From Lachnospiraceae bacterium (GTDB lineage: Bacteria; Bacillota; Clostridia; Lachnospirales; Lachnospiraceae), in NCBI GenBank assembly GCA_017405805.1, contig JAFQZU010000027.1, forward strand, positions 1 through 47,849: a DNA stretch of 47,849 nt, read 5' to 3'. Positions 11,182-33,732 of this stretch are shown one piece after another (position 1 is the stretch's first letter; each line of letters begins with the position of its first letter). The position numbers and the translations under genes are program-made. The notes beneath the pieces are model-generated. The model was not told the DNA's origin, did not search any database, and was given only the letters and a program-made list of their open reading frames with translations.

Positions 11182-11874
11182 TCAACCGCGCTTCAACTCA
11201 TCGAAGATCACTTCCGCGAGCCTGAAGTCCAGCATGGTATCAATGTCGACGCTCTTATCCTGGCTCATGATATAGGCATAGCTTCCCTCTTTATACAGGA
11301 ACCGGTCCTGTGCAAAACGCCGGGTGCTGACGATATAGATCGCCCCGTTCAGCCTGTAGAAGGGACTTCCCGCCTGCCTCTGCTTCATGCCGGCCTCGTC
11401 GATAAAGTCCGTGAATTCCCCCGACTCCGGCAGGTGGCCGCACCAGAGCGGCGAGTGCTCTGCCTCACAGACGGAGACGACGGCAAAAGAAGCTCTCTCC
11501 CTGAAGATCTCATATGCGGCCCGGATGTCCTCCCCGTCCCGCAGAGGGGACGTCGGCTGCAGGAGACAGAAGGTATCGAATTCCTTCCCCCGCTCTCTGT
11601 ACCCGTCCAGCACCTCCTGCACCATATCCCATGAACTGGCGCTGTCCGTGGAGGTCGCTTCACTTCGCAAAAACGGCACGCTTGCGCCCCACTCCCGGGC
11701 GATCTGCGCATATTTTTCCGAATCGGTGGATACCATTACCTCGTCAAACTGGCCGGACTCCAGGGCGGCGCAGATGGTATGCGCCATGAGCGGTTTTCCG
11801 GCCAGAAGCCTGATATTTTTGTCGATCACGCCTTTGGACCCGCTTCTTGCGGGAATGATCGCGATATTTTTCAT
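11182..11874 (-). CDS. CMP-nonulosonate (legionaminate) cytidylyltransferase
   Basis: Activates a nonulosonic acid with CTP. The 230-residue protein has the NeuA/LegF-type N-terminal nucleotide loop IPARSGSKGVIDKNI, the VSTDSEKYA segment, the LLQPTSPLR motif and the metal-binding DIDTMLDF near the C-terminus. Its place directly after legG and legI homologues, and the presence of legB, legC and a ptmE-like gene, favour legionaminate over sialate as substrate; this is inferred from context. There is no extra C-terminal domain as in some longer NeuA proteins. Confidence 0.88.
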   Translation of the reverse strand: MKNIAIIPARSGSKGVIDKNIRLLAGKPLMAHTICAALESGQFDEVMVSTDSEKYAQIAREWGASVPFLRSEATSTDSASSWDMVQEVLDGYRERGKEFDTFCLLQPTSPLRDGEDIRAAYEIFRERASFAVVSVCEAEHSPLWCGHLPESGEFTDFIDEAGMKQRQAGSPFYRLNGAIYIVSTRRFAQDRFLYKEGSYAYIMSQDKSVDIDTMLDFRLAEVIFDELKRG

Positions 11875-11913
11875 ACAGCACTCCTCATCTGTACAAGTCC
11901 CTCTCGGGGAAGA

Positions 11914-13074
11914 TCAAAGATCGTAGAACTTCTTTTTCAGGTCGATCCCGCCGCTGCGCACGATCTCTACTGCCTTGGCCGCGATGCGCGCCGCCGCATT
12001 TCCGTCTCCGTAGGGGCTTACGACTTCCCGGCATATAGCTCTGTGTTCTTTACTCATGGCGGTCCGGATCGCCGCCGCAATGGAGTCTGCGTCGGGCGCG
12101 CAGTCAATGATGCTCGGCGTCTGGAGCCTCCCCCTTTGCCTGTCCCCGATATTCACCGTAGGGATCTTAAAAGCGGGCGTCTCGATGATCCCGCTGGAGG
12201 AATTGCCCAGCACGAACTCGGCGTATTTCATAAGGGACAGATAGCGCCGGATCCCCAGTGAAGTAAAGACATGCAGGTTGTCGATCTCCGGCTCCGCTTC
12301 ATCCAGGAGGGCGTTGATCCGCGCGCCGCCCTGGTCCGCGTTGGATTTGGTCACAATGAACTGGATGGACGGGAACCTCCGGATCGCTTCGAGAAAATAG
12401 GCCACCTGCCCGTCGACGCCCCCTTTCTCCATAGTGACCGGGTGATAGGTGCAGACCGCATACCGGCAGTCGGGAAGTCCCACGCTCTCCAGCGCCTCTT
12501 TCCTGGTCATATCCGCGGCGTGCAGGATGTTGTCAATGCTGGTGGATCCGTAATTGAAAACGCGGGCGGGATCCTCTCCCAGCTGGATGACACGCTTCCG
12601 GCTGTCCTCATTGGTGACAAAATGCAGATAGCTGATCTTGGTGATCGAATGCCTGATCCACTCGTCCAGAGCGCCCTCCGTCGTGTCTCCGCCGCACAGA
12701 TGAAAGACCGGCGTCCTGGTGTTGCCGGCCGCCACGGCCACCGCCAGTGTCTCGTAGCGGTCTCCCAGCAGGATCACGGCGCTGTAGCGGCTGCCCGCGA
12801 ACAGCCTGGTAAATTTGATCAGGACTTCCGCCTGATTCGCGGAGATGTCCTCCTCGCTCTCAGAGCACACCGACACCGGGACGGTTCGGTCGATCCGCGT
12901 GCCCGCGGTCTCGATCTCCCGGATCGTCATGCCGTACTGCTCGCTCAGGTGGGTCCCCGTGACGATCAGTTCGATGCGCAGATCATCGCTCTCATACGCC
13001 CGCAGCGCATCGATGACCGGAGAGAGCAGCCCGTACTCGGCCCTTGTGGCCGTGACAACAGCGATCTTCTTCAT
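11914..13074 (-). CDS. Hydrolysing UDP-sugar 2-epimerase (NeuC/LegG type)
   Basis: 386-residue epimerase that would release the 2-epimerised free sugar from its UDP form, giving 6-deoxy-diacetamido-mannose for the legionaminate synthase. It begins MKKIAVVTATRAEYGLL, diagnostic of NeuC-like enzymes, with HLCGGDTTEGALDEWIRHSI and the C-terminal GNSSSGIIE loop for the nucleotide. The in-frame opening extends 27 codons upstream, but the ATG at 13074 starts the conserved part and follows GAGG overlapping the legI stop codon. The C. jejuni LegG enzyme uses a GDP-linked substrate, so the nucleotide here is uncertain. Confidence 0.9.
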   Translation of the reverse strand: MKKIAVVTATRAEYGLLSPVIDALRAYESDDLRIELIVTGTHLSEQYGMTIREIETAGTRIDRTVPVSVCSESEEDISANQAEVLIKFTRLFAGSRYSAVILLGDRYETLAVAVAAGNTRTPVFHLCGGDTTEGALDEWIRHSITKISYLHFVTNEDSRKRVIQLGEDPARVFNYGSTSIDNILHAADMTRKEALESVGLPDCRYAVCTYHPVTMEKGGVDGQVAYFLEAIRRFPSIQFIVTKSNADQGGARINALLDEAEPEIDNLHVFTSLGIRRYLSLMKYAEFVLGNSSSGIIETPAFKIPTVNIGDRQRGRLQTPSIIDCAPDADSIAAAIRTAMSKEHRAICREVVSPYGDGNAAARIAAKAVEIVRSGGIDLKKKFYDL

Positions 13075-13088
13075 ATCCCGTCCAAACC

Positions 13089-14081
13089 TCACAATTCGAT
13101 CATTTCGTCCTCGGCGTAATCTCTCACCGCCCTGGTTCCCAGCACCTCGTCCCAACGCATGGGGCTGATCCCGGTTCCCGGACGCTTCACCGTGATATTG
13201 TCCTCTGTCAGCAGTTCCCCGGCCCTGATAGCGCGGGCCGCAACAATGCTTTTTCTGGCCACTGCCATGTTCTTTTTCTCCGAGGGAGACGGCTCCTTGA
13301 CGCCGCTTCCCAGGGCGGCCTCGATGTGGCGGATGGATGTCACCATGTCCTTCAATTCCTGCGGCTCAAGGCTTGCCTTGTGGTCGGGGCCCTCCATGTT
13401 CCGGTCCAGCGTGAAGTGTTTTTCGATGATCACGGCCCCCATGGCTGCCGCCGCGACGGGGACCTCGATTCCCTTCGTGTGATCGGAATAGCCCACTTCG
13501 AGTCCGAATGTATCTCTGATCGTCTGCATGGCGCGCAGGTTCACGTCCTCATAGGGCGTGGGATATTCCGTATTGCAGTGCAGGAGCGTGATCTCTCCGG
13601 CGCCGCTCTCCCGCAGCGCCTGCACGGAAGAGGCGATCTCGTCCATAGTGCACATGCCCGTGGACATCACGACCGGTTTCCCGGTCCGCGCGACGGCCCG
13701 CAGATAAGGAAGATTGGTCACTTCCCCCGAGGGCACTTTCCAGAAGGGCATCCCTATGGAATTCAAAAAGTCAATGCTCTCGAAGTCAAAGGGCGTGGAG
13801 AGAAACGCAATCCCTATGGATTCGCAGTATTTCTTGAGGGAGATGAACTCCTCATACGACAGCTCGAGCTTTTTGAGCATCTCCTGCTGGGAAGTGTCTC
13901 CCGTGGCAGCTTTCTGGTACTGTGCCTTCTCCGCGTTCTTCGACACCAGCTTCTCCGCCTTGAAGGTCTGGAATTTGATGCAGTCCGCCCCCGCCTCCAG
14001 GGCGGCGTCCGCGAGCCTGCAGGCCAGTTCATAGCTTCCGTTGTGATTGACGCCTGCCTCGGCGATGATGTATATTCCCAT
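13089..14081 (-). CDS. Nonulosonate (legionaminate) synthase, NeuB/LegI type
   Basis: Condenses phosphoenolpyruvate with a mannosamine-type sugar. 330 residues: an N-terminal barrel beginning IYIIAEAGVNHNG, with KFQTFKAEKLVS, KVPSGEVTNLPYL, STGM and EVGYSDHTKGIEV, and a C-terminal SAF/antifreeze-like domain (RSIVAARAIRAGELLTEDNI). The chosen ATG has GGAG six bases upstream and fits family starts; another ATG four codons earlier (14093) has a more distant AAGGA and is possible. Sits between the acetyltransferase and the epimerase in the nonulosonate block. Confidence 0.93.
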   Translation of the reverse strand: MGIYIIAEAGVNHNGSYELACRLADAALEAGADCIKFQTFKAEKLVSKNAEKAQYQKAATGDTSQQEMLKKLELSYEEFISLKKYCESIGIAFLSTPFDFESIDFLNSIGMPFWKVPSGEVTNLPYLRAVARTGKPVVMSTGMCTMDEIASSVQALRESGAGEITLLHCNTEYPTPYEDVNLRAMQTIRDTFGLEVGYSDHTKGIEVPVAAAAMGAVIIEKHFTLDRNMEGPDHKASLEPQELKDMVTSIRHIEAALGSGVKEPSPSEKKNMAVARKSIVAARAIRAGELLTEDNITVKRPGTGISPMRWDEVLGTRAVRDYAEDEMIEL

Positions 14082-14106
14082 TTTTGTCTCCATTCCGATC
14101 AGATCC

Positions 14107-14736
14107 TTATCGGATGATCCTGCACGGATTGCCAAAGGCCGTGACGCCTGCCGGCACATCCTTAACGACGGCACTGCCGGCGCCGACCAGGGCGCGCGCC
14201 CCGATCCTGAGTCCCTGCCGCACGACGCTCCCGGCCCCCACATGGGCCCGGTCCTCCACATAGACCTTCCCGCAGAGCACCGTCCCCGGGCTTATGTGGC
14301 AGAAATCGCCAATCCGGCAGTCGTGCTCGATGACAGCGCCTGTGTTGACGATGGCGTGGCGGCCGATCACCGTCCCCGTATTGACCACGGCTCTTTTGCC
14401 GACAAACGTGCCCGGGCCGATCACGGCTGCGGGCGACACGACGGCCGAGGGATCCGCGATCACGGGAATGAAAAACCCGATCTCCTCGATCAGGCGGGCC
14501 AGCTTCTCCCGCACTGCGGTATTTCCGATGCTGCCCACCGTCACGAAGGCGTCAGTCCAGCCCTCCTCAAAGAGCCTGGGCAGATCCTCGTCACAGCCCA
14601 CCGGCGTGATGCCTCCCGCGGCGTCCGCGTTCTTTTCTACTACGCCTACATCCTCATATAACCCGGAAGCCAGGGCGCAGTCCATGACTGAGGCGGCGTG
14701 ACCTCCCGCCCCGATAAGAAGTAATCTTCTATCCAT
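14107..14736 (-). CDS. PglD/NeuD-type sugar N-acyltransferase (LegH candidate)
   Basis: 209 residues. The N-terminal Rossmann-like part starts LLLIGAGGHAASVMDCA and the C-terminal part is a left-handed beta-helix of hexapeptide repeats (about 90-200). The catalytic His expected of PglD-like enzymes fits the segment GAVIEHDCRIGDFCHISPGT. By position between ptmE and legI it is the likely transferase acylating the 4-amino group of the legionaminate precursor. GGAG lies seven bases before the ATG and abuts a perfect 10-bp hairpin of the repeat at 14746-14865, which could limit access to the ribosome binding site. Confidence 0.85.
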   Translation of the reverse strand: MDRRLLLIGAGGHAASVMDCALASGLYEDVGVVEKNADAAGGITPVGCDEDLPRLFEEGWTDAFVTVGSIGNTAVREKLARLIEEIGFFIPVIADPSAVVSPAAVIGPGTFVGKRAVVNTGTVIGRHAIVNTGAVIEHDCRIGDFCHISPGTVLCGKVYVEDRAHVGAGSVVRQGLRIGARALVGAGSAVVKDVPAGVTAFGNPCRIIR

Positions 14737-14745
14737 TCTTCTTCT

Positions 14746-14865
14746 CCCGAAGTTCTGCCCCGCAGAACTTCGAAAAATGCGAGCCTCGTATTGCGAGCAT
14801 TCGTTTACGCCCGAAGTTCTGCCCCGCAGAACTTCGAAAAATGCGAGCCTCTTATTGCGAGCATT
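14746..14865. repeat. Two tandem 56-bp copies of a double-hairpin repeat
   Basis: Copies at 14746-14801 and 14810-14865 differ at only one position (cctcg versus cctct) and are separated by 8 bases (period 64). Each has a perfect 10-bp dyad (CGAAGTTCTG/CAGAACTTCG, loop CCCCG) and an AATGC...GCATT dyad. The pair fills the gap between the ptmE-like stop codon and the legH start, interrupting an otherwise tightly packed operon. Possible roles are an mRNA processing/stabilising structure or a mobile REP-like element. Confidence 0.85.
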
Positions 14866-14869
14866 TTTT

Positions 14870-15919
14870 CTATTCTCCGTAGAGCCTCACCCTCATCTTC
14901 TCCAACTCCGACAACTGCCCCATATCCATCCAGTCATTCTCACTGACCGGGAAAGCCGCCACATTCCGCCCCTTCTCGATCTGCCCCATCGCGATCTCCG
15001 GGAAACCGACCGCCACATCGTTTTCGATGTCGTCCAGGACATACGGCTCCACGATATAGATCCCCGTGTTGGTCAGAAACGACATGAGGGGCTTCTCCTT
15101 CATGGCCTCGATCTTTCCGTTTACGCCCATTTCCACCACGCCGTAGGGGATGGGGAAATTCTTGGTCGCGCAGATCATGGTGACCGCGTTATGGTTCTCC
15201 TTGTGGAACTCCAGCATACGCTCGTAATTGGCCGTCAGGAGGTTGTCGCAGTTGGTGAAAAAGAAGGTCTCACTGATCTTCCCCTTCAGAAGGCTCAGGC
15301 CGCCGCCGGTCCCGAGGGGCTTTTCCTCGTCGTACCAGGCGATGCTGTATCTGTTCTCGTTCTCGGCAAAATACGCCTTCATCAGCTCCCTTTTATAGTT
15401 CACGATGATATGGAATTCCTCGCACTGATAGGATTGGAACTCCTTCATGATGTGCTCGATGATAGGTAGCTCTCCCACGGGGATCAGGGGTTTTGGCAGC
15501 ACGCGCGTGAAGGGATCCAGTCTCGTCCCTTTCCCGCCGGCGTTGATGACCACCGGCACCTTCAGGGCCCCGTGCCTGCGGTTTTCCCTGCCGTCTCCCG
15601 TGTAGAGATCAACGATCCTGCCCTCCCCGTCCAGCACCGGGATGGCCACGTAGTTCTTCTTGTGATAAAGCGTGCCTGCCTCGTCGTAGGTGGAAGCGAT
15701 CTTGGGCGTGCGGTTGGCCGCTTTGAGGGCGGGTTCGTCCATTTTGCCGCCCGCAAGGAGAAAACGGCGGATATCGCCGTCCGTGATGCAGCCAAGGAGC
15801 CTGTCTCCCTCGTCCGTAAGGAACAGGATCCGTCCCGCGTTCTCGTCGATCCGCCGCATGGCGTGCGCGACGGTGAGATTTCCGCTTCCCAGGTACTTTC
15901 TGATATCCTGATTATCCAT
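14870..15919 (-). CDS. CBS-domain sugar nucleotidyltransferase (PtmE-like)
   Basis: 349 residues: paired CBS motifs (about 1-118, with TDGDIRRFLLAG) fused to a nucleotidyltransferase domain with GGKGTRLDPFTRVLPKPLIP (about 127-146), FTNCDNL and DWMDMG. In Campylobacter, PtmE has this architecture and makes GDP-glucosamine for the legionaminate pathway; the same reaction is inferred here from architecture and context. The ATG at 15919 overlaps the end of legC by 8 bases and has GGAG nine bases upstream; a TTG five codons earlier is less likely. CBS domains suggest allosteric control by a nucleotide. Confidence 0.87.
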   Translation of the reverse strand: MDNQDIRKYLGSGNLTVAHAMRRIDENAGRILFLTDEGDRLLGCITDGDIRRFLLAGGKMDEPALKAANRTPKIASTYDEAGTLYHKKNYVAIPVLDGEGRIVDLYTGDGRENRRHGALKVPVVINAGGKGTRLDPFTRVLPKPLIPVGELPIIEHIMKEFQSYQCEEFHIIVNYKRELMKAYFAENENRYSIAWYDEEKPLGTGGGLSLLKGKISETFFFTNCDNLLTANYERMLEFHKENHNAVTMICATKNFPIPYGVVEMGVNGKIEAMKEKPLMSFLTNTGIYIVEPYVLDDIENDVAVGFPEIAMGQIEKGRNVAAFPVSENDWMDMGQLSELEKMRVRLYGE

Positions 15920-17090
15920 TTGCCAGCTCCTCAAACAGCGCTTTGACCTCCTTCACCACGATGCCGATCTCCTCCTGCGTGATCTGGGTACTGCAGGGGA
16001 TGTTCAGGATCCGCGCGGCGTAGTAAGGCGCCTTCTCCAGTCTGTAGGTCTCCTCGCCTTCATAGGGCCTCTGCTCGTTGATCAGGCCCCAGATCGCTCT
16101 GGTCTGGATGCCCTTCTTCTCCAGGGCCGTGATGATCTCGCGCATGGAGGCCGTGATCCTCGTCCGGTCGATCTCCAGCGAATAGAACCACATGTTGGAG
16201 GATGTTCCTTCCCTGAAGGGCATCAGCTTCGCGAGATCGAAGTCCTCGAAAGCCTTTTTGTAGATTTCGTAATTCTGCTGCTTGCGGCGGATGAACTCGG
16301 GGAGCTCCTCCATCTGGGCCGCGCCCAGAGCCGCCTGCAGATTGGTCATTCTGTAGTTGTAGCCGATCTCATTGTGGATGTAGTAGTGGGGATCGTCCTT
16401 GGCCTGGGTGGACAGATAGCGCAGATGATCCACTTCGGCCGGATCACGGGATACGATGGCGCCGCCGCCGCCCGTTGTGATGATCTTGTTGCCGTTAAAA
16501 CTGTAGGCGCCGAAGTCGCCGATGGTCCCGGCGTATTTTCCCTCGTAGCGGCCCTCCGTGTAATAGGTGCCCAGCGCCTCGGTGGCGTCCTCGATCACCT
16601 TGAGCCCGTACCGGTCCGCTATATCCATGATCTGCTCCATGTCGGCCATGTTGCCGAACACGTGCACGACGACCACGGCTTTGACGGGACGGCCCTTATG
16701 CATGAGGACGCCGTCCTCCATCGTGCACTCCTTTTCGCAGAAGTCCCGGAGCTTGACCGGATCCATGCAGAAGCTGTCGTCACAATCAATGAAGACCGGC
16801 ACCGCGAACTGGTACTTGACCGGATTGACGGCCGCGATAAAGGTGAGCGGAGGCACGAGCACCACGTCTCCCGGCCGCACGCCGGCCTCGGATAGTGAGA
16901 GGTGGAGGGCTGACGTGCCGCTCTGGCATGCCGCCACGTTCTCCACGTGGAGAAATTCCGCAAGCTGCTTCTCCATCTGCGTGATAAAGGCCCCGCCGGT
17001 GGACACCCACCCCTGTTCAATGGCCTCGTTTACATACTTCTTTTCATTCCCTTCAAAATTCGGGATCGACAGCGGGATAAATCTGCTCAT
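15912..17090 (-). CDS. PLP aminotransferase of the legionaminate pathway (LegC type)
   Basis: DegT/DnrJ/EryC1/StrS-family sugar aminotransferase, 392 residues. It would add the 4-amino group to a 4-keto-6-deoxy nucleotide sugar. The PLP Lys is Lys202 in [14 protein letters not shown]; other family marks are QSGTSALHLSL, PPLTFIAAVNP, VIEDATEALG and GYNYRMTNLQAALG. Located 9 bases after the dehydratase gene and overlapping the ptmE-like gene. A second, more distant DegT aminotransferase opens the operon at 28862-30166, so the two probably act on different sugars. Confidence 0.93.
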   Translation of the reverse strand: MSRFIPLSIPNFEGNEKKYVNEAIEQGWVSTGGAFITQMEKQLAEFLHVENVAACQSGTSALHLSLSEAGVRPGDVVLVPPLTFIAAVNPVKYQFAVPVFIDCDDSFCMDPVKLRDFCEKECTMEDGVLMHKGRPVKAVVVVHVFGNMADMEQIMDIADRYGLKVIEDATEALGTYYTEGRYEGKYAGTIGDFGAYSFNGNKIITTGGGGAIVSRDPAEVDHLRYLSTQAKDDPHYYIHNEIGYNYRMTNLQAALGAAQMEELPEFIRRKQQNYEIYKKAFEDFDLAKLMPFREGTSSNMWFYSLEIDRTRITASMREIITALEKKGIQTRAIWGLINEQRPYEGEETYRLEKAPYYAARILNIPCSTQITQEEIGIVVKEVKALFEELANG

Positions 17091-17099
17091 AGCGGTGCC

Positions 17100-18308
17100 T
17101 CACATTTTCTGGTCCAGGGACTTTCCGGTCTCGATGTGCTCAAAGTTGGGGAGATAATCGCTCAGGATCTCCACGACTTCCTCCTTGGTGGTCTCCTCCT
17201 TGTCAAAGGCCGCACCAAGCTTTCTGTATAACTCTTCCACTTTCTCCCTGTCGGGGATCTGTTTGCCCGTGATCACGCCGAGAGAGGAAAAGCGCTCCAT
17301 ATCGGCCGTCTCGGTGTCCGTCACGAACTCCTCGAAGGATTTTTCCCCCGAGGTATCCGAGTAGGAGTAATGTACGGGGTATTTTCTGCTGCCGTTCTGC
17401 AGCGCGTGCGCCCAGTGGATCGCCTCGTTGTCGTCGCTGCACTCCAGGACTTCGTAGCCGTGCGCCTCGAGGAGGGCCGTGCCGATGGCGTCAAAAGTCA
17501 TCATCTGCGCCTCCTCCAGCTTGGGGAAGAAGATGGCGCGGTTCTCGCCCAGCATGCAGGAGAGAAGACAGATCTGGCCGCTCTCCTCGGGGGAGACGAA
17601 GTAGCGCTTGACGTCGGAGGGCGCCGAAAGCGGCTGAAGCTTCCTGATCCTCTCGAGGAACCCTGCGGGGAGGGATCCGTTGGAGAAGGCGACGTTGGCG
17701 AAGCGGGCCGTTTTGACGGGGAAGCGGTCGGAATAGCTGAATATCACATCCTCCATGACGCGCTTGGACGCCCCCATGATGTTGACCGGGTTGGCCGCCT
17801 TGTCCGTGGACACGCAGAAGAAGGCCTGCGGCGGATATTCGGCCAGAAGGTCCAGCAGGATCCTCGCGTGCAGGACGTTGTTCTGCAGAAGCGCCTCCAC
17901 CGAATAGATGTCCTTTTCAGAGCGGACGTGCTTGTGGGCGGAGAAATTCGCCACGATATCAAACCCTCCCCTCTTTTTGAACATCTTGGTAAAGACGGGC
18001 GAGGAAAAATCCATCGGATACGGCAGGTAGTCCTCCGGGATCCTGTATCTGCCGGAGGAGCGCAGGTCTCTCGTCAGCTCCGCCAGGCCGTTCTCGTTGG
18101 TGTCGACGACCACAAGAGAAGCCGGCTCAAAAGGCAGGAGCGCCTTGATGAAGGAGGAACCGATGCTGCCCGCGCCGCCGATGACCAGGACGGATTTCCC
18201 CCAAATCTTCTTCGCAAGCGTCTCCCGGTTCGCCTCGATGTCCTTTAAAAACATGGACTTGGGCCTTTTTGTCACGTTTTCTGCTATAAACTGCTCCAGA
18301 TTAAACAT
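17100..18308 (-). CDS. Nucleotide-sugar 4,6-dehydratase (LegB type)
   Basis: 402-residue extended SDR that would form the 4-keto-6-deoxy intermediate for LegC. The NAD loop is VLVIGGAGSIGSSFI (about 39-53), followed by VVDTNENGLAE, NFSAHKHVRSEKD and CVSTDKAANPVNIMGASKR. In the last motif Met replaces the usual catalytic Tyr, as in the WbpM/PglF class of dehydratases, while the Lys is kept. Length fits soluble LegB rather than membrane PglF; there are no transmembrane helices. GGGAGG precedes the ATG. First of the seven nonulosonate genes. Confidence 0.9.
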   Translation of the reverse strand: MFNLEQFIAENVTKRPKSMFLKDIEANRETLAKKIWGKSVLVIGGAGSIGSSFIKALLPFEPASLVVVDTNENGLAELTRDLRSSGRYRIPEDYLPYPMDFSSPVFTKMFKKRGGFDIVANFSAHKHVRSEKDIYSVEALLQNNVLHARILLDLLAEYPPQAFFCVSTDKAANPVNIMGASKRVMEDVIFSYSDRFPVKTARFANVAFSNGSLPAGFLERIRKLQPLSAPSDVKRYFVSPEESGQICLLSCMLGENRAIFFPKLEEAQMMTFDAIGTALLEAHGYEVLECSDDNEAIHWAHALQNGSRKYPVHYSYSDTSGEKSFEEFVTDTETADMERFSSLGVITGKQIPDREKVEELYRKLGAAFDKEETTKEEVVEILSDYLPNFEHIETGKSLDQKM

Positions 18309-22298: not shown

Positions 22299-23252
22299 TC
22301 AAAGCTTCAGATAGTTGCTGCTGACCGGCGGAAAGTCGTTGGTGTCGAGCCGGGGCAGCTGAAACGGTGAATCCTGGCCTATATAAGCCGTCGCGGACCT
22401 GGTAATGACACCCAGCGCCGCTCCCTTTTCCTTCGCGATCTCCTCCACCTCCATGGAGTGGGAGCCGTAGGGGTAGCAGATGATCCATCCCTCCCTGTCG
22501 ACGATCCCGTCCATGGCGTCCAGGGCCATCTCCATGTCCCGCTCCGCCTGCTCCTTCGTCATCCGGTTCAGCCAGGCGTGCTCATATCCGTGGATCCCGA
22601 AGACCATGCCCATGCGCTTCATGAGCTTCATCTGTTCGGGAGACATATAGAGTTCCTTGACCATGACGTTCTCCGGCACGCCGACGACCTCGTCGTACAG
22701 CCGGTCCGCCAGACCGTTCCGAATATCCTCGGGAAGCTCCACCTGCAGCATGCGCTTGATGAAGATCACCTCCGGCGGATCGAAGCGGCTGGTCAGATTG
22801 CAGCGGTTCCAGTACTCCTCCATGGAGGGCAGATCATTTTCCTTCAGCGTCCGCACAAGCAGCTTTTTGAACTTGGGCCACAGGACCTCCATGCTCTCCG
22901 CCGCCAGCGTGTAATGGATCTTGTTCACGTCCAGAAGGCGCTTTTCGCGCAGGATCCTGCCGGGCATGGAGAAAAAGGCGGTCATGTCATTTTCCATAAG
23001 GATCGGGAAGACCGTCGTGTAATGATCGATATAGCCGTCGTCAAAAGTCAGCATGCACGCATTCTCCGGAAGCCTCTGCCCGCCATGCGCGGCCTCGATG
23101 ACCGCCTGCGGAGAGACCACCGTGAAGTTTTCCTTCAAAAAGGCGATCTGCTGCTCGAAGCGGTTCGTGCTCAGTCCCCGGATCTCCGGGTAGCGGCTGT
23201 TCTCGAGATCCCTGACATAGTGATACATTACGATCTTAAGCGGCTGTGTCAT
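22299..23252 (-). CDS. Polysaccharide deacetylase (NodB homology)
   Basis: 317-residue carbohydrate esterase family 4 protein. Metal-site motifs: TFDDGY (motif 1, about 69-74) and GIHGYEHAWL (motif 2, His-x-x-x-His, about 201-206). It begins MTQPLKIVMYHYVRD with no signal peptide, so it probably acts on a cytoplasmic intermediate or lipid-linked oligosaccharide. ATG overlaps the preceding stop codon by 4 bases (ATGA). Could remove an N- or O-acetyl group before re-acylation by one of the acyltransferases of the operon; this last point is inference. Confidence 0.87.
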   Translation of the reverse strand: MTQPLKIVMYHYVRDLENSRYPEIRGLSTNRFEQQIAFLKENFTVVSPQAVIEAAHGGQRLPENACMLTFDDGYIDHYTTVFPILMENDMTAFFSMPGRILREKRLLDVNKIHYTLAAESMEVLWPKFKKLLVRTLKENDLPSMEEYWNRCNLTSRFDPPEVIFIKRMLQVELPEDIRNGLADRLYDEVVGVPENVMVKELYMSPEQMKLMKRMGMVFGIHGYEHAWLNRMTKEQAERDMEMALDAMDGIVDREGWIICYPYGSHSMEVEEIAKEKGAALGVITRSATAYIGQDSPFQLPRLDTNDFPPVSSNYLKL

Positions 23253-24484
23253 TTCGTTCCTCCGATCAGATCCACGCCGCAGTACTCCTTGATGAGGTCG
23301 GTCATCAGAGTATGCGGCCTTGAAAGCATGATATATCCCCGGTCGATCATGTTCTGGAACTTGGCCGGGTCCACGTAGTTGTCGATGAGGACTTTTTTGT
23401 CGGAGTAGTACGCCTCCGTGAGCACCGTGGAGTTATAGGCGCCGATGTATTCGCTGCACTCCATGGACTGCTCGAGGGTCCAGGTCTTGTCCTCGATCAT
23501 ATAGCCCTTAAATACCTCCGCAAGGAGCTCTGTATCCGTAAACCTGGGATGGGGACGGAGCTTGCAGCGAAGTCCTCTGGATTCCAGAAGGTCCGTACAC
23601 TGCTTGATCCGCTCCATTCTGTCTCTGGACTCGGAAGTAAAGTAATAGGTCAGGAAGTAGTCGTAGGGCACGCCCTCCGGTCTGGGTTTTACCTTCGGCT
23701 CGAATTTTTTGGGCTTATAGACCTCGAGGCTTCCCTCTCTCGCTCTCAGGCGGTAGAACATGTCGACGTAGTAAGGCTCCCAGACATAGTATCTGGTAAA
23801 TGTCAGATAAGCCTTATCGATTGAGTATACGAAGATCCCGTGCATAAAGCTGACGGTATCGACATTCTTGTCATTACTGTATTCATAGAGGATCGGGGCG
23901 ATGTACTGCCTCTCCAGCCCGTATCCCGCGACGGCCTTGGGGTGATAGCGGTACATGAGCTCGCAGCTGCCGGCGATGCGGAGCAGCGCCTCCAGACAGA
24001 AGTAAGGGTGATGCCAGTACCTTTTAAGGCACACGCCAAAACGTCTCCAGGCCTCCTTGTCCATACACCGTTCCGACACGGTCAGCGGCTTGACCTCCCG
24101 GACAGGCCCGTAGTCCCGCTCGATCTGCGGCGGCAGGATGTCCTTATAGCCCATGGTCGGGGAGACCGTGAGGATGACGCCCTCCGGCACAAAAGGGCTG
24201 AAGTCCTTTTTCCTGCTTTTTACCGCGAATAAGACAGCAAAAACAGGCACCATAACGATGCCTGCGCAGTTGTACAGAACCCGCACAGGGTTCGAGAAGT
24301 GATAGTAGGAATGGCACTTGTATTTCAGATAGGCGCGCTCATATTCGTCCCGCGGCTCCCCCAGGCTCTGCATGTACCTGGTCTGATCCTCCATTTCCCG
24401 GTGCTTCTTGGTGCTCTCCGCGCCAAAAAGCATCCTCCTGTTAAACTTCAGATATAAATTGGTCAGACTGGTGATCAAGGACAT
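23249..24484 (-). CDS. Putative glycosyltransferase, sialyltransferase-like motifs
   Basis: 411 residues, one possible membrane-associated hydrophobic segment (about 72-90). The N-terminal half has MHGIFVYSIDKAYLTFTRYY, the C-terminal half KLRPHPRF (His312-Pro313) and GAYNSTVLTEAYY (Ser352-Thr353). HP and S-S/T motifs in this order and spacing characterise bacterial sialyl- and polysialyltransferases that use CMP-sugars. No other obvious CMP-sugar transferase lies in the locus, so this is the best candidate for adding legionaminate. The ATG at 24484 has GGGGGAG upstream; the frame is open for 57 codons before it but the extension overlaps the preceding gene. Confidence 0.65.
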   Translation of the reverse strand: MSLITSLTNLYLKFNRRMLFGAESTKKHREMEDQTRYMQSLGEPRDEYERAYLKYKCHSYYHFSNPVRVLYNCAGIVMVPVFAVLFAVKSRKKDFSPFVPEGVILTVSPTMGYKDILPPQIERDYGPVREVKPLTVSERCMDKEAWRRFGVCLKRYWHHPYFCLEALLRIAGSCELMYRYHPKAVAGYGLERQYIAPILYEYSNDKNVDTVSFMHGIFVYSIDKAYLTFTRYYVWEPYYVDMFYRLRAREGSLEVYKPKKFEPKVKPRPEGVPYDYFLTYYFTSESRDRMERIKQCTDLLESRGLRCKLRPHPRFTDTELLAEVFKGYMIEDKTWTLEQSMECSEYIGAYNSTVLTEAYYSDKKVLIDNYVDPAKFQNMIDRGYIMLSRPHTLMTDLIKEYCGVDLIGGTK

Positions 24485-24507: not shown

Positions 24508-25143
24508 TTATTTCTTCTGAAAGACTCGCGCGGGATTGCCGAATACTTTCGTATCTTCCTCCACACTGCGGATGACGACGCTCCCGATCCCCACATAGGA
24601 TCTGGCGCCTACCTCCAGGCCGACCGCGATGGCCGCGTGATCCGCGATGAAGCACTCTTCATGGAGCCTGCAGCCCCCTGTGATCCCGCAGCTGGAGCTC
24701 ACGGTCACATAGTTTTCGATCTGCACGTCGTGCCCGATGATCGTGGACTGGATCGTGACAAAATCGCCGATCCTGCAGCCCGTCGAGATCTTGCAGTTGG
24801 GGTAGGTCACAAGCCCTTCGCCCAGCGGAAACTCCGTATAGATCCGGGTGCTCGGATGGATGATCCGCGCAAAGACGGCGCCCCGCTCAAGAAGCGCGCG
24901 GGCCACCTTGTGCTTGACCGCCGGATTGGCGATCCCCATGGCCAGGTATACGCCTTCTTCCGGCGTATAGCCGCTGATCGGCCCGATCACGGGATAGCGG
25001 GAAGGCAGGCCCTTCAGGGCGTCCGGATTGTCATCCAGAAATCCCCTGATCGTCCATGTCTCCTCTTCTTTATTGATGTCTTCGATCCAGTTGGCCACTT
25101 CTCTTCCGCAGCCGCCCGCACCGACAATCATAATATCTTTCAT
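24508..25143 (-). CDS. Second PglD/NeuD-type hexapeptide acyltransferase
   Basis: 211 residues: Rossmann-like start IMIVGAGGCGREVANWIEDI, then a left-handed beta-helix (about 95-205) with STIIGHDVQIENYVTVSSS, where the His would be the base. The second residue pair is GCGRE, unlike the GGHA of the LegH candidate, and the two proteins are only distantly alike, so they should differ in substrate. It directly follows the AMP-forming ligase gene (12-base gap), which suggests that it transfers the acyl group that the ligase/carrier module prepares. Confidence 0.8.
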   Translation of the reverse strand: MKDIMIVGAGGCGREVANWIEDINKEEETWTIRGFLDDNPDALKGLPSRYPVIGPISGYTPEEGVYLAMGIANPAVKHKVARALLERGAVFARIIHPSTRIYTEFPLGEGLVTYPNCKISTGCRIGDFVTIQSTIIGHDVQIENYVTVSSSCGITGGCRLHEECFIADHAAIAVGLEVGARSYVGIGSVVIRSVEEDTKVFGNPARVFQKK

Positions 25144-25155
25144 TCTGCAGCCCTC

Positions 25156-26565
25156 TTAACCGGCATAGGTCTCGTCCATCACCCTGTACTGGATCTTTCC
25201 GGTGTCGTTGCGGAGGATCCCGGGTACGACATAGATCTTGAACAGGGATTTGTAAAGTCCTGTCTTGCCTGCGATATAATCCAGCACATCCTTTTCTTTG
25301 GAAGCGTCCGTGATATAGACGTTCATCCTCTGGTCATTCCCGGCGCAGGCGCATTCGATGCCGAATTCCTGCTGGATCAGGCGCTCGCTCTGGTCCAGGC
25401 TGACGCGGTAGCTGAGGAGCTTCAGGAACCGGGAGAGCCTTCCCGTCACGTAGTAGCAGCCGTCGGCGTCCCTTCTGGCCAGGTCGCCCGTTCTGTAGAC
25501 CCCCTTAAACTCATCGCCCTTGGAGAGGTCTTCTTTGCAGACGGCGTAGCCCATGGTCACGTTGGGGCCCTTGTAGCACATCTCGCCCTCGGCTTCCATG
25601 TCTGTCAGCACCTGCCCGTTCTCGTCGATCAGAAACAGTTCGCCCTCGGGGATGGCCCTTCCGATGCTTCCCGTCTTGGTGAGCGCCAGCTCCGCGGGCA
25701 GGCACGCCATGCGGGCGGAAGTCTCCGTCGTCCCGAAGGAGGGGATGAAGCGCTTTCCGGTCCTCTGCGCGTATTCCGCCAACTGGATGAAACGCGCGTC
25801 CGTCAGCTTTCCGCCACCCTGGGAGAGGGTCCGCAGATCCGGCAGATCCATCCTCTCGAAGCGCAGCCGGTAGAAAATGTCATAGCTGAAGGGGACGCCG
25901 GTAAAATTGGTGCCGCGCTCCTTCCGGATATAGTCCCAGAAATCCGCGCTCATCAGGTTATAGGTGGTCAGGAGCACCGTCGCGCCCACATACAGGTGCG
26001 TATTGATGACATTCAGCCCCATCGTATACTGCATGCCCAGATCGCAGATCGCGCGCTCCGCGCTGGTCCAGCCGAAGGCTTTGGCGACGTTTCTCGCATT
26101 GGCCTCCAGATTTCCTTTCTTGTAGCGCACGAGCTTGGGGCTTCCGGTGGAGCCGGACGTCGTCATGCAAAGCTGCAGATCCTCGTGCAGAGGATAGATC
26201 TCGCTGTCCGTCCGCAGGAGCACATATCCGTGCGTCTCATAGACCGGCGCATAGGGGAATTCTTCCGCAGCCGCCTTCGGGGCCCAGATATAGGCGGGGG
26301 CATAAACCTCAAGCAGATTCCGGAGGAGTTCCCTGTCAATGTGGGCGTTAAGCGTCACGGGTACTGCGCCGGCATCGACAAAACCCAGATACCCGAGCAT
26401 ACTGCCGACCGTGTTGGTGCACAGCAGAAAGATCAGCGAGCGCTTCTGCACCTGCCTGCCCGCTTCCGCAGCAAGGGCCGCGGTCTCTCCGTACGTCAGT
26501 CTGTACCCCTCGTTGTCGATCATCGCGAGCGATGAACCGTTCTGCCTGTCAATTCCCAGAAACAT
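25156..26565 (-). CDS. AMP-forming acyl ligase (ANL superfamily)
   Basis: 469 residues. ATP-binding loop TTSGSTGSPKLVRYKKG (about 135-151), GTTETSARM, hinge region YRTGDLARRDADGCYYVTGR and the C-terminal catalytic lysine region NDTGKIQYR. All core motifs needed for acyl-adenylate formation and thioesterification are present. It is shorter than acyl-CoA synthetases (usually over 500) and sits one gene away from a carrier protein, as DltA does with DltC, so loading the carrier is the likely job. Ribosome binding site AGGGAG. The acyl substrate cannot be told from sequence. Confidence 0.85.
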   Translation of the reverse strand: MFLGIDRQNGSSLAMIDNEGYRLTYGETAALAAEAGRQVQKRSLIFLLCTNTVGSMLGYLGFVDAGAVPVTLNAHIDRELLRNLLEVYAPAYIWAPKAAAEEFPYAPVYETHGYVLLRTDSEIYPLHEDLQLCMTTSGSTGSPKLVRYKKGNLEANARNVAKAFGWTSAERAICDLGMQYTMGLNVINTHLYVGATVLLTTYNLMSADFWDYIRKERGTNFTGVPFSYDIFYRLRFERMDLPDLRTLSQGGGKLTDARFIQLAEYAQRTGKRFIPSFGTTETSARMACLPAELALTKTGSIGRAIPEGELFLIDENGQVLTDMEAEGEMCYKGPNVTMGYAVCKEDLSKGDEFKGVYRTGDLARRDADGCYYVTGRLSRFLKLLSYRVSLDQSERLIQQEFGIECACAGNDQRMNVYITDASKEKDVLDYIAGKTGLYKSLFKIYVVPGILRNDTGKIQYRVMDETYAG

Positions 26566-26602
26566 AGTGTGAAACTCCCTGATAAGCCTTTTGTTGCGTT
26601 TG

Positions 26603-27346
26603 TTACATGATCGTGCAGCCGTCTACGGGCAGCACCTGGCCGGAGATATATCCGGCGTAATCGGATGCCAGGAGCAGGCAGCCGCCGGCGATGTCGGCCG
26701 GCTTGGCGATCCGTCCCATACAGATGTTGGCGATCCGCCCCTGCAGCTTTTCGATGTCCGCCTGCGCCATCATCTCGGTCTGCGTGAGCCCGGGCGCGAT
26801 GGAATTGACCCGGATCCCCTTGGGCGCCAGCTCCTTGGCGGCCGACTTGGTGAGGCCGATCACGGCACCCTTGGTCGCCGAATAGACCAGCTGTCCCGCG
26901 TTGCCGCGAAGGCCTACCATCGACGAGATATTGATGATGCTGCCGCCGCCGTTTCTGGCCATGATCCGGCTGACCGTCTGGATCATCTCGATCATGCCGA
27001 AGACGTTGACCCTGAACATCTTTTCCATATTGTCGCGGGAGATCATGCCGATCAGCTCGTTGAACTCCACGCCGGCGTTGTTGACCAGCACGTCGATCCG
27101 GCCGAACTGCTTTTTGACGGCCATCACGTTCCTGCGCACCGCGTCCGGATCGGTGATGTCAAAATAGAAGGCGTGCAGCCGGTCCTTTACGGTACTCTGC
27201 GCGATCCACTCGTCCGCCGCCCCTTCCCTGGCGTCATTGACCACGACCTCTGCGCCTTCACATGCAAATAAAGAGGCGATCTCCTTACCGATCCCGCGAC
27301 CTGCCCCCGTGACGATACAAACTTTATCTTTTAATAAATCGCTCAT
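26603..27346 (-). CDS. Short-chain dehydrogenase/reductase, FabG-like
   Basis: 247 residues. Cofactor loop VTGAGRGIGKEIA (about 11-23), NNAG, catalytic Ser in INISSMVG, and YSATKGAVIGL with Tyr and Lys; the RVNSIAPGLTQTEMM tail is FabG-like. The ATG has GAGG six bases upstream; a longer in-frame extension overlaps the carrier gene. Located between carrier and ligase genes, it probably reduces a 3-ketoacyl group on the carrier to a 3-hydroxyacyl group. Acting on a nucleotide sugar is an alternative. Confidence 0.88.
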   Translation of the reverse strand: MSDLLKDKVCIVTGAGRGIGKEIASLFACEGAEVVVNDAREGAADEWIAQSTVKDRLHAFYFDITDPDAVRRNVMAVKKQFGRIDVLVNNAGVEFNELIGMISRDNMEKMFRVNVFGMIEMIQTVSRIMARNGGGSIINISSMVGLRGNAGQLVYSATKGAVIGLTKSAAKELAPKGIRVNSIAPGLTQTEMMAQADIEKLQGRIANICMGRIAKPADIAGGCLLLASDYAGYISGQVLPVDGCTIM

Positions 27347-27377
27347 TCCGTTCCTCTTGGCCGGCAGCTGATCCGGC

Positions 27378-27620
27378 TCAGTCAATCGCGACGCCGTAGC
27401 GGGCAAGGATCTTCCTGCCGTTGTCATACCCGCCGAAATGCAGTATGTCATCCGTCTCGAACATGATGTCAAAAGCGTCTTCCAGCTCACTGATCAGCGT
27501 CAGGTGAGAGAGGGAATCCCACTTCTCCACATCCGCGAAGTTAAAGCCGCTGCCAAGCTCGCTCTTATCCACTTCAAAGACCTTCACAAAGATCTCGTCA
27601 TACTTTTCTCTTGCCGTCAT
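27378..27620 (-). CDS. Acyl carrier protein
   Basis: 80-residue acidic four-helix carrier. The phosphopantetheine Ser lies in the motif WDSLSHLTLI (Ser36), followed by the acidic helix SELEDAFDIMFETDDI. It is not next to fatty-acid genes but overlaps the upstream acyltransferase gene by 4 bases (ATGA) and precedes the reductase, so it is a dedicated carrier of the polysaccharide locus. It carries, by inference, the acyl group made by the neighbouring ligase and reductase. Confidence 0.93.
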   Translation of the reverse strand: MTAREKYDEIFVKVFEVDKSELGSGFNFADVEKWDSLSHLTLISELEDAFDIMFETDDILHFGGYDNGRKILARYGVAID

Positions 27621-28210
27621 TTTGTCTCTTTTCTCCTTTTCCTGTGCAGTTCCCAGAGCGCCTCAGCGGTCTCCCCGGAGAGGTCCTTTCTCTCAGGGAA
27701 CTTATCGGATTCCCCGCTGCTGATCCTCGTGATCTTCACGGCGGGCGCATTTCTTCTCTTCTCGATCAGCTCCTCCAAAGAGCAGATATATCTGGCCGGC
27801 ACGCCGCCATAGACGCCGCCGGAGGCCAGGTCCTTATTCACCAGGCTCATGGCCGCCACCACCACGTCCGACCCGATGGTCACGCCCGGCAGCACGGTGG
27901 TGCCTTCGCCGATAAACACATTGTCGCCGATCTCGATGCAGCCCAGGTGTTCGGGAAACTCATTTTTGCCCGCGCGGTTGTTCAGCATCCGGTTGATCAC
28001 GTCGTGCGTCGTCAGGGAGACGCCGGAAGCGATCCACACATTGTCTCCCATCGAGATCAGCTCCGGATGCAGGGGGATCTTGCGGAACATGACCATGCAG
28101 TTTTTGCCCGCATGGCGGAAAATATCGTGCTTATGCAGATACTCTCCCCTTCCCTGGCCGGTCCTCTTCAGGCACATGCCGATCGTATGTCTGATCCTGT
28201 TCCATTCCAT
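27617..28210 (-). CDS. WbbJ/LacA-like acyltransferase
   Basis: 197 residues, hexapeptide-repeat acyltransferase: SMGDNVWIASGVSLTTHDVI contains the catalytic His of the galactoside/maltose acetyltransferase type, followed by IEIGDNVFIGEGTTVLPGVT and YGGVPARYI. A charged C-terminal extension (about 150-197) is unusual. Its start codon shares a base with the stop of the phosphoglycosyl transferase, and its end overlaps the carrier gene, so a carrier-bound donor is plausible; acetyl-CoA is the usual donor in the family. Confidence 0.85.
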   Translation of the reverse strand: MEWNRIRHTIGMCLKRTGQGRGEYLHKHDIFRHAGKNCMVMFRKIPLHPELISMGDNVWIASGVSLTTHDVINRMLNNRAGKNEFPEHLGCIEIGDNVFIGEGTTVLPGVTIGSDVVVAAMSLVNKDLASGGVYGGVPARYICSLEELIEKRRNAPAVKITRISSGESDKFPERKDLSGETAEALWELHRKRRKETK

Positions 28211-28842
28211 CAGTCTGCCGTCCCCATAAACTCTTCCATGGTCACGGAGGTCTCCGAGCTGATGCCTTCCCGCTTCAGAACGGTCCTCACCGTGGCAAAA
28301 ATGATCTTCCAGTCGCCGATGAAGGTGATCTTGTCGACGTATTTGACGTCCCAGTCAAACTTCTCCTCCCAGGAGATCGCGTTGCGGCCGTGCACCTGCG
28401 CGAGGCCGGTAAAACCCGGCAGCACCTCATGCCTTCTGGCCTGGTGCGCGTTGTAGCGGGGCAGGTACTTGACCATCAGGGGACGCGGCCCCACGATCGA
28501 CATATCTCCCTTAAGGATGTTGAAGAGCTCAGGCAGTTCGTCCAGACTCGTGCTGCGGAGTTTCTTTCCGAAGGACGTCAGCCGCTGCGCGTCGGGCAGG
28601 AGCTTCCCGTCCTTGTCCTTTTCGTCCGTCATCGTCCGGAACTTATAGATATGGAAGATCTTTCCGTCTTTGCCCGGTCTCTCCTGCTTAAAGATCACGG
28701 GACTCCCGAGCTTGCAGCGGACAAGGAGCGCCGTTCCGGCCATGACCGGGCTCAGCGCAGTGATCGCCGCAAGAGAAAGCAGGAAGTCCTGCGGCCTCTT
28801 AAAATATTTTTCGTACGGGCCGTATGGCTTATGTGTGCTCAT
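28210..28842 (-). CDS. Phosphoglycosyl transferase, PglC/WcaJ type
   Basis: 210-residue monotopic transferase that would place the first sugar-1-phosphate on undecaprenyl phosphate at the cytoplasmic face. One N-terminal hydrophobic helix (about 16-40), then [19 protein letters not shown] with the catalytic Asp-Glu region ([24 protein letters not shown]) and the C-terminal [13 protein letters not shown]. The short length equals PglC rather than WbaP. GAGG is close to the ATG; an upstream in-frame extension overlaps the preceding gene. Substrate inferred as a UDP-diamino or amino sugar because an aminotransferase gene precedes it. Confidence 0.93.
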
Positions 28843-28861: not shown

Positions 28862-30166
28862 TTATTGGAAGCACCTGTGGATGATGTCGATGATGACATC
28901 CTGCTGCTCCTTCGTCATCTTGTTGTCCGAGGGCAGGCACAGGCCTCTCTCAAAAATATCCATTCCCACGTCCGCCGCGGTTCCTTCGTCGATGTAAGCG
29001 TTGCTGCGCCCTCTGCCGACGCCCTCCGTGCTCATAAAAACGTTGCCGCGGTATACGGGCTGCATGTGCATGGGCTTCCAGATGGGCCGTCCCTCCGCGC
29101 CAAAAGCCCCGATCGCCTCCAGGATCTCCGTGGGACACGATCTCCCTGACTGCGGTATGTAGAGCGGCCTTCTCTCGCCCCGCATCTGCGGGCACATGGC
29201 GTCCTCGTCGATCAGGATGCAGGACAGCCAGTAGTTGGGCTCGCAGTCCGCCGGGATGGGATTCATGGTCACCGGAAGATCGCGCAGTCCCTCCCTGTAA
29301 CGTTCGTAGACCGCCTTCTTCTGGGCGATATGCTCTTCCATATAAGGAAGCTGGCCGCGAACCACGCCCGCGATGATATTGCTCATCCTGTAGTTGTAGC
29401 CGAGCTCCTCATGCTGGTACCAGGGTGCGTCCTCTCTGGCCTGCGTGGCCCATTTGCGCACTTTGTTGACGTCGGAGAGCGAATCGCTCACCAGCATGCC
29501 GCCGGCACTGCCCGTGATGATCTTATTCCCGTTAAAACTGATGATGCTGTAATCCCCCAGCTTTCCAGTCATCACGCCCTTGTAGGACGCCCCCAGGGAC
29601 TCCGCCGCGTCTTCCACGATCAGTGCACCGTGCTCGTCCGCAATGGCCCTGATCTCGTCGTATAGGGCCGGCGTCCCGTAAAGGTGTACCAGTACGATCA
29701 GCCGGACGTCAGGATAGATCTCGAAGGCCTTCCGCAGCGCCCCGGGAGACATGTTCCAGGATTCGCGCTCCGAATCGATAAAGACCGCCTCGCCGCCCTC
29801 GTAAGCCACGGGATTGACCGTCGCGTCAAAAGTCATGTCAGAACAAAAGACCCTCCGTCCCTCCAGAACGCCCTTGTTGGCGGGTGCGGGACCATACAGC
29901 CTCTCTCCGGCCAGCCGCACAGCCAGATGAAGCGCAGCCGTTCCCGAGGAGAGCGCGGCCGCGTATTTCCGGCCTGTCTTCTCCGCCATGATCTTCTCCA
30001 CTTCGTCGATGTTGGCGCCCACCGTGGACACCCAGTTGGTGCGGATCGCCTCGTCCACCCAGCGCTGCTCATCCCCGTGCATGGTCGGGGAGGACAGCCA
30101 GATCCTGGACGGAAACGGCTCTATCCCTGAAAACCTTTTATCCTGTAAATAATCGATCTGATTCAT
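28862..30166 (-). CDS. DegT-family sugar aminotransferase (PglE-like)
   Basis: First gene of the polysaccharide operon, 434 residues from this start. PLP Lys in [14 protein letters not shown], plus [35 protein letters not shown] and [13 protein letters not shown]. It probably makes a 4-amino-6-deoxy-hexose for the initiating sugar. A matching UDP-sugar 4,6-dehydratase other than LegB is not in the window. Starts at 30181, 30178 (ATG ATG) and 30166 are all possible; none has a good ribosome binding site. Confidence 0.87.
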
Positions 30167-30227
30167 ACAATCTACCATCATCTGCGCAAAAACGCAAACT
30201 TACCCAATTTTTTAATAATCATAACAC

Positions 30228-32846: not shown

Positions 32847-32893
32847 CATCACCTCATGTCGACGCGTCCTCTGCACATCGAATACCTGTTAAC

Positions 32894-33688: not shown

Positions 33689-33732
33689 CACTTTCACTCC
33701 TTTTTATCAAAAGCTTTCCGACCGCAGAGACA

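Follow-up and report, generated by a model that had tools for sequence, protein, structure and literature searches.

The window analysed here, contig JAFQZU010000027.1 (47,849 nucleotides) of the Lachnospiraceae assembly GCA_017405805.1, carries on its minus strand an operon that is, by its gene families, a bacillosamine-type (Pgl) cassette, running from PglE and PglC to PglD. Set in this cassette are genes for a dedicated acyl carrier protein (ACP1), a 3-oxoacyl-ACP reductase-like protein (FabG1) and an AMP-forming (ANL) ligase (Table 1). Comparison of related loci indicates that the conserved unit is this ACP-FabG-ligase trio, mostly beside a PglD-type N-acyltransferase. The reading we favour, with somewhat better than even confidence, is that the trio forms a carrier-loading module in the cassette for the first sugar and would feed PglD with hydroxyacyl-ACP.

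From the gene families we infer the chemistry, the substrate and the sugar as follows. The ligase would adenylate a short non-amino carboxylic acid and attach it to the phosphopantetheine arm of ACP1, upon which FabG1 would reduce the loaded keto-acyl group to hydroxyacyl-ACP. The PglD-type enzyme would take the acyl group over from the ACP and attach it to the 4-amino position of a PglE-made sugar of the UDP-QuiNAc4N type, and PglC would place the acylated sugar on the lipid carrier, starting the repeat unit. The simplest guess for the acyl group is acetoacetate reduced to 3-hydroxybutyryl, an identity guessed from precedent. If true, this would be one route by which these bacteria vary the sugar that starts a surface polymer, and the ACP1-FabG1-ligase clade described below would be a marker set to predict hydroxyacylated polysaccharides from genomes.

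Conservation of the trio among related ligases

The first-pass annotation of this DNA had described five consecutive acyl-handling genes with overlaps or short gaps. The open reading frames (ORFs) and family matches confirmed this, with five consecutive minus-strand genes in the order WbbJ-like, ACP, FabG, ligase and PglD-like. The WbbJ-like and ACP genes overlap by 4 bp, and the following gaps are 31 bp (ACP to FabG), 37 bp (FabG to ligase) and 12 bp (ligase to PglD-like).

At E ≤ 1e-60, 45 of the 397 family genomes sampled have a relative of the ligase. A ligase profile at E ≤ 1e-80 found matches in 30 of 392 genomes sampled from the order and in 9 of 398 sampled from the phylum; each count includes the window's own genome, and the three samples overlap. 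Among viral contigs, 17 pattern matches were found, none of them a relative. The 76 ligase loci examined comprise 16 in the clade of the window and 60 others. The clade was taken from a quick tree that included 69 ligases out of the 76, where 16 rows including the window fell on one side of a branch with a support of 100 (Shimodaira-Hasegawa-like approximate likelihood ratio test, SH-aLRT). In a slower tree of 56 rows, the ten clade members known then were supported at 100/100. Seven rows, a fragment (L076) and six on long branches (L078, L084, L087, L088, L089 and L090), lie outside the ligase tree and are still counted among the 60 other loci. The clade supersedes an earlier grouping of 15 loci picked with the gene context in view, to which it adds L096.

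Neighbouring genes were counted on the same strand within 9 kb of the ligase, at scores of at least 230 bits for a FabG of the FabG1 type and at least 90 bits for a PglD-like gene. Many loci are short contigs, which lowers the counts; 5 kb on both sides was available for 41 of 61 other loci and 13 of 15 in the earlier grouping. An ACP was found near the ligase in all 16 clade loci versus 42/60 other loci, a FabG1-type FabG in 15/16 versus 2/60 and a PglD-like gene in 12/16 versus 1/60. The acid reductases LuxE and LuxC showed the reverse distribution: each was found in one clade locus (L093), versus 41/60 and 37/60 others, respectively, and neither lies within 9 kb of the window ligase. As an example of these other loci, L047 encodes proteins that match LuxE (Pfam, 6e-52) and LuxC (2e-23). 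By their gene company there are thus two ligase lineages, one with ACP, ligase and acid reductases, and that of the window, with a FabG and usually an N-acyltransferase.

A WbbJ-like gene accompanied 6/16 clade ligases and 0/60 of the others, and a split transketolase 1/16 (L096) versus 15/60. A NeuB/LegI-like gene was counted in 1/16 versus 9/60; the window's own copy lies about 12 kb off and is uncounted, and for most loci the sequence retrieved extends about 8 kb to each side.

The three genes occur in the order ACP, FabG1-type FabG and ligase inside 2.4 kb in 13 of the 16 clade loci. In L007 and L009 a gene of the metallo-beta-lactamase (MBL) fold stands between ACP and FabG, L011 has the order FabG-GNAT-ACP-ligase with the GNAT gene in place of the PglD-like one, and in L092 the three genes are dispersed across 8 kb. 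The five genes had been proposed to act together, with a search for their co-occurrence across genomes as a check. The trio, compact and ordered, does recur beyond what chance would give; the WbbJ-like gene is an optional companion.

Carrier protein and reductases

A dedicated ACP with a phosphopantetheine serine, a feature of the wfp- and vio-type modules discussed below, is present by sequence motif: all 11 aligned carriers share the W-D-S motif of ACP1 (D35, S36). The ORF listed for FabG opens at a GTG at 27490, overlapping the ACP gene, and alignment of the relatives places the true start at the ATG at 27346. FabG1 is 64-83% identical to nine relatives, and its catalytic YSATK is intact and invariant (10/10). 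The ligase signatures TSGSTGSPK and GKI are likewise intact; the catalytic roles of these motifs, and of the IGHD motif of PglD-type proteins, are assumed here to be the usual ones. Among solved structures the best relative of FabG1 is a FabG (4nbu, 1.5e-55), and the best solved relatives are mostly FabG. In the FabG tree, the FabG1 group forms one side of a branch with 15 rows and a support of 77.

A 3-ketoacyl-ACP synthase III (KASIII) was found within 9 kb in 4/16 clade loci versus 2/60 others, and none within this distance of the window ligase; it is absent in 11 of the 15 clade loci having FabG1. Three of the four KASIII loci (L046, L091 and L095) carry a further, distant FabG besides FabG1 (three rows, support 100), and in the fourth, L092, the contig ends on the side where the second FabG would lie. 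In L046 the ligase is accompanied by two genes each for KASIII and FabG, three ACPs and a holo-ACP synthase; the phosphopantetheinyl transferase of this locus scores 67 bits with TIGR00556 (cut-off 45).

Relatives of FabG1 (49% identity), the ACP (42% to ACP1) and the ligase (47-49%) were also found together on plasmid 35 of Parabacteroides distasonis (L158), whose ligase is nearest to that of clade member L093 (54%). This plasmid also encodes a PglD/VioB-like protein (34%) that retains IGHD, along with a second carrier and short-chain dehydrogenase/reductase (SDR), a KASIII, a DegT aminotransferase and dTDP-sugar genes. Plasmid 35 is a circle of 19,350 bp whose listed genes look like one polysaccharide locus, from a tyrosine autokinase to a sugar transferase; the circle either arose by excision of this locus or is a product of the assembly. 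On plasmid 67 of the same strain, all six best ligase matches lie outside the clade, and a single SDR stands beside a KASIII. The three best matches of this SDR are the KASIII-linked FabGs (33-34%), and FabG1 is not in its best six. The simplest reading of this distribution is that FabG1 would act on the ligase-loaded group and the second FabG on the KASIII product. The separation of the FabG that goes with the ligase from the one that goes with KASIII, together with the view of the trio as an extra in a widespread Pgl cassette (below), gives a concrete pathway, testable with purified proteins.

Substrate of the ligase

The pairing of an ANL ligase with a small carrier is shared with DltA/DltC, which the first-pass annotation had named as an example of carrier loading. 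In DltA-type enzymes, the Asp of the A4 motif binds the amine of the substrate. The reference for the alignment was a DltA-like protein encoded in a related genome (L115), which itself scores below the DltA cut-off; its Asp aligns with Thr181 of the window ligase, and all 10 close relatives compared have the same Thr. Because Thr181 replaces the amine-binding Asp, an alpha-amino acid is unlikely as the substrate, and the ligase does not look DltA-like in this respect.

For these reasons we regard it as very improbable that an amino acid such as alanine is loaded for aminoacylation of a sugar, as in DltA/DltC or nonribosomal peptide synthetase systems. Besides the ligase-carrier architecture, matches to the DltA model TIGR01734 (E 8e-19) and the amino-acid adenylation model TIGR01733 (1e-36) speak for such a role, as does the best match of the single sequence in the PDB, the adenylation domain of linear gramicidin synthase (2e-23). 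The scores, however, are far below the cut-offs (67.5 bits of 559.85 and 126 of 317), and a search with a profile of ten ligases instead favours CoA ligases, with oxalate- and succinylbenzoate-CoA ligases as the best PDB matches. No DltB- or DltD-like match was obtained among the scanned operon proteins, and FabG would be left without a clear job. The PDB relatives are all distant and do not fix the acid.

The Pgl cassette and its acyltransferases

The top PDB matches of the aminotransferase of the operon are 1o61 (E 6e-61) and 4ztc (4e-60), which we take to be Campylobacter PglE. The PglC-type protein matches N,N'-diacetylbacillosaminyl-1-phosphate transferase (8e37 and 8g1n, E 7e-70 and 2e-69; next PDB match 2e-31); its ORF opens at 28899 and the relatives suggest a start near 28842. 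With relatives of PglE, PglC and PglD in a single operon, the window resembles the Campylobacter Pgl pathway (PglF/E/D/C), which to our knowledge includes no carrier, FabG or ligase; a match to PglF was not obtained in the window's assembly by the search given below.

Table 1. Features of the window discussed in the text, with assignments predicted from sequence matches.
Feature	Position	Strand	Evidence or remark
PglE-type DegT aminotransferase, 4-keto to 4-amino UDP-sugar	28862..30181	-	DegT Pfam 2e-68; start codon unsettled
PglC-type phosphoglycosyl transferase	28210..28842	-	PDB 8e37/8g1n
WbbJ/maltose-acetyltransferase-like hexapeptide acyltransferase	27617..28210	-	Hexapep family
ACP1, dedicated acyl carrier protein	27378..27620	-	phosphopantetheine Ser within WDSLSHL
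FabG1, 3-oxoacyl-ACP reductase-like SDR	26603..27346	-	adh_short_C2 Pfam 6e-60
AMP-forming (ANL) ligase, candidate acyl-ACP ligase	25156..26565	-	AMP-binding PF00501 3e-40
PglD/VioB/NeuD-type sugar N-acyltransferase, candidate acyl-ACP user	24508..25143	-	PglD_N 1e-9
Uncharacterised protein, next in operon after PglD-like	23249..24484	-	no Pfam or NCBIfam match
Legionaminate-type genes, context outside the trio	11182..18308	-	family models

In L006 and L045 a PglF-like protein (631 and 630 amino acids; 195 and 190 bits with the PseB model, below its cut-off) is encoded upstream of PglE, and similar proteins of 677 and 689 amino acids stand at the same place in L005 and L007. On account of these four loci, the full arrangement would read PglF-PglE-PglC-trio-PglD, with other genes interspersed.

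Relatives of PglE at E ≤ 1e-110 were found in 95 of 397 family genomes, and 41 PglE loci from 40 fetched regions, most of them higher-scoring matches, were compared. PglF lies upstream within 4.5 kb in 26/41 and PglC (at least 200 bits) within 4 kb downstream in 25/41. In this set, which omitted one genome that carries the trio (G350, locus L045), the ligase or FabG1 was found at none of the 41 loci and an ACP at one (L143), and the trio is therefore judged, from gene content, to have been added to a Pgl cassette that is common without it. L143 appears to be an independent example of a carrier-loading gene joined to the same cassette, with the order PglF-PglE-PglC-WbbJ-PglD-ACP-FkbH (4567-9796 from PglE to FkbH). 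FkbH proteins load glyceryl groups onto ACPs, and with an FkbH score of 272 bits (cut-off 146.65), glyceryl-ACP is probably the acyl donor for the Pgl sugar of this locus.

The PglD-like protein of the window scores 168 bits with the NeuD/PglB/VioB model TIGR03570, above the cut-off of 160.8; its best PDB match is VioB (7txp, 1.4e-17) and the His of IGHD is present. For the WbbJ-like protein, maltose/galactoside O-acetyltransferases are the best solved relatives. Pgl loci that lack the trio can have this gene too (L121, L123 and L143), and it is optional, probably serving ordinary O-acetylation.

PglD-type enzymes mostly use acetyl-CoA, as in Campylobacter. The PglD-type protein of the window might do the same, with the trio serving O-acylation by the WbbJ-like protein, or legionaminate via a second NeuD/LegH-type enzyme in the window (14107-14736). 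Nine of the ten PglE loci with a PglD-like gene within 3 kb lack a carrier, which agrees with this alternative, as do the position of the WbbJ-like gene directly before the ACP and the three clade PglD-like proteins without the catalytic His described below. We nevertheless hold it to be unlikely, since no WbbJ-like gene lies within 9 kb in 10/16 clade loci, the WbbJ-like gene does without the trio elsewhere, a LegI-like gene is near a single clade ligase, and PglD-like genes are enriched with the trio (12/16 versus 1/60).

As the acceptor of a carrier-fed PglD, the PglE/PglC sugar is more likely than legionaminate because of this same scarcity of LegI-like genes (1/16). The proposal of the first-pass annotation that an amino sugar of the polymer is acylated can thus be kept with the Pgl sugar as the likelier acceptor, while the acid, its loading and its transfer would follow the steps given at the outset.

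Several observations weigh against the favoured reading. No Pfam family matches ACP1 at E 0.001, and with the NCBIfam ACP models it scores 28.5 bits of the 66 required (E 1.4e-6). For FabG1, the PRK07231 'glucose 1-dehydrogenase' subfamily alone among the 25 models listed is above its cut-off, and the FabG models, at 167-217 bits, are each below their own. The FabG threshold used for the neighbour counts was set with the loci in view, the clade itself coming from the ligase tree. L096 is a clade member without FabG1, no PglD-like gene lies within 9 kb in L011, L092, L095 and L096, and L093 has relatives of LuxE and LuxC about 5-6 kb from the trio. Of the 12 PglD-like proteins counted in the clade, those of L008, L009 and L094 have Leu or Phe at the position of the catalytic His. 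A search of the window's own assembly (84% complete) with the L005 protein gave no PglF match at 1e-15. The gramicidin synthase match of the ligase belongs here as well, and the AlphaFold model of this protein has a mean pLDDT of 62, with residues 160-257 below 50 and no readable pocket.

The PglD-like genes without His are located at 106-735 in L008, at 5589-6236 in L009 and about 2 kb upstream of the ligase in L094. With these three proteins, and the four loci without a PglD-like gene within 9 kb, a rule that PglD always goes with the trio was rejected.

Comparison with described systems

Among the published systems compared here, the closest with a known product is the wfp cluster of Flavobacterium psychrophilum, where a 3,5-dihydroxyhexanoyl group is carried on D-Qui2NAc4N of the O-polysaccharide (PMC6519341). 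Like the window, it has a dedicated ACP (wfpD) and a PglD homologue (wfpG), which is predicted to transfer the acyl group from the ACP to UDP-Qui2NAc4N; its 3-ketoacyl-ACP reductase (wfpF) would be the counterpart of FabG1. Unlike the window, it is a Gram-negative O-antigen cluster, its acyl chain is credited to two 3-ketoacyl-ACP synthases (KAS; wfpC and wfpE), and the part of the article available mentions no ligase (PMC6519341). The viosamine island of Pseudomonas syringae resembles the window in its aminotransferase (vioA), VioB, FabG-type VioR and acp; its product is N-(3-hydroxy-1-oxobutyl), and a vioR mutant loses the modified viosamine (PMC3927599). It differs in a KASIII (vioS) and in a dTDP-sugar that is placed on flagellin, and no ligase is listed in the available text (PMC3927599). 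The window has the ACP and the PglD/VioB-type protein of these modules and not the KAS; it may work alike, and is not a plain member.

Ligases with carriers in glycan loci are known from two further groups. Both differ in having LuxC/LuxE-type genes, of which none lies within 9 kb of the window ligase. In Vibrio cholerae O1, Morona et al. in 1995 are said to have assigned the other rfb genes to a dehydrogenase and the LuxC/LuxE-like RfbN. RfbK/RfbL of this O-antigen cluster are a ligase and carrier with a proposed role in hydroxy-acid activation (PMC12208996). The Aeromonas Group II and enterobacterial flagellin islands, which are nonulosonate/glycan loci, combine an ACP, a 3-oxoacyl-ACP reductase and an AMP-dependent synthetase/ligase with luxE and luxC, genes credited in the available text to fatty-acid synthesis or a 'liposugar' (PMC7874193, PMC4875605). 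The flagellin glycan of Aeromonas AH-3 ends in a 102-Da group (PMC7874193). This mass equals that of a dihydroxybutyryl residue (C4H6O3), which would fit the ACP/FabG/ligase/LuxE/LuxC genes of the island.

These systems raise the alternative that, as in RfbKLMNO, the ligase loads a ready hydroxy acid, which FabG1 would make beforehand, acting on the free acid as an alcohol/keto reductase. It has precedents in RfbL/RfbK, with 2,4-dihydroxybutanoate proposed for RfbL (PMC12208996), in the gene content of the Aeromonas islands and in the AH-3 end group (PMC7874193), equal in mass to a C4H6O3 residue, and the sugar-dehydrogenase subfamily score of FabG1 is consistent with it. Two points lead us to rate it as improbable: LuxE and LuxC, needed for the second alcohol, are near 1/16 clade ligases versus 41 and 37 of 60, and the best solved relatives of FabG1 are mostly FabG.

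Searches of the open-licence literature turned up no paper on the trio in Lachnospiraceae or in Pgl cassettes, PMC6519341 being the nearest among the papers listed. What looks new here is a ligase-primed variant without KAS, with signs of interchangeable carrier-loading modules in the Pgl cassette; its modularity is unusually clear and lends itself to testing. We tentatively raise the possibility that this cassette has an exchangeable acyl-loading slot, holding nothing, ACP with FkbH, the trio, or the trio with a KASIII set. With nothing inserted, PglD would work on acetyl-CoA, and with ACP and FkbH (L143) glyceryl-ACP would be supplied. In the window, a free short acid would be scavenged and turned into hydroxyacyl-ACP, which would take ATP and one reduction but no malonyl-dependent synthesis. 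Where KASIII, a second FabG and a second ACP are added (L046, L091, L095 and Parabacteroides), the starter would be extended, for example to a 3,5-dihydroxyhexanoyl-type group. If such a slot exists, the chemistry of the surface polymer would depend on the free short acids of the cell.

Legionaminate genes and other loci

The operon had been placed in a legionaminate polysaccharide locus. This setting was upheld: the set at 11182-18308 comprises a dehydratase, LegC, a nucleotidyltransferase, NeuD/LegH, NeuB/LegI, NeuC/LegG and a cytidylyltransferase, with LegC at 453 bits (cut-off 420) and the NeuB and NeuC models also above cut-off. The gene at the LegB position (17100-18308), of the dehydratase family, gave weak matches.

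The protein encoded after the PglD-like gene (23249-24484) has relatives in L009 and L011, where they immediately follow the ligase, and in L058, L139 and L140. Its RPHPR and TVL.EA blocks are invariant in four aligned relatives; as a guess, it is perhaps a glycosyltransferase. Upstream of the polysaccharide operon, at 31848-41261, two genes resembling formyl-CoA transferase lie with an MBL-fold hydrolase and enoyl-CoA hydratase-, FabK- and FadX-like genes; this looks like a cluster of its own for acid degradation.

The window's own genome carries a second ligase copy, 45% identical, on contig C37 (L043, 13829-19934), with LuxE, LuxC, an ACP, a metallo-beta-lactamase-fold protein and an adjoining gene of the acetyl-CoA hydrolase/transferase family. 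In L069, L071, L075 and L077, ACP, ligase, LuxE and LuxC are near a gene of the HpaB family (by Pfam for L071), a family that includes 4-hydroxybutyryl-CoA dehydratase. These five loci suggest carrier-bound acid reduction in fermentation rather than in a glycan. Other ACP-ligase-LuxE-LuxC loci (L047, L051, L061, L063, L065 and others) often also have a distinct FabG and what looks, by eye, like a split transketolase, a hint of a further pathway that runs on a carrier.

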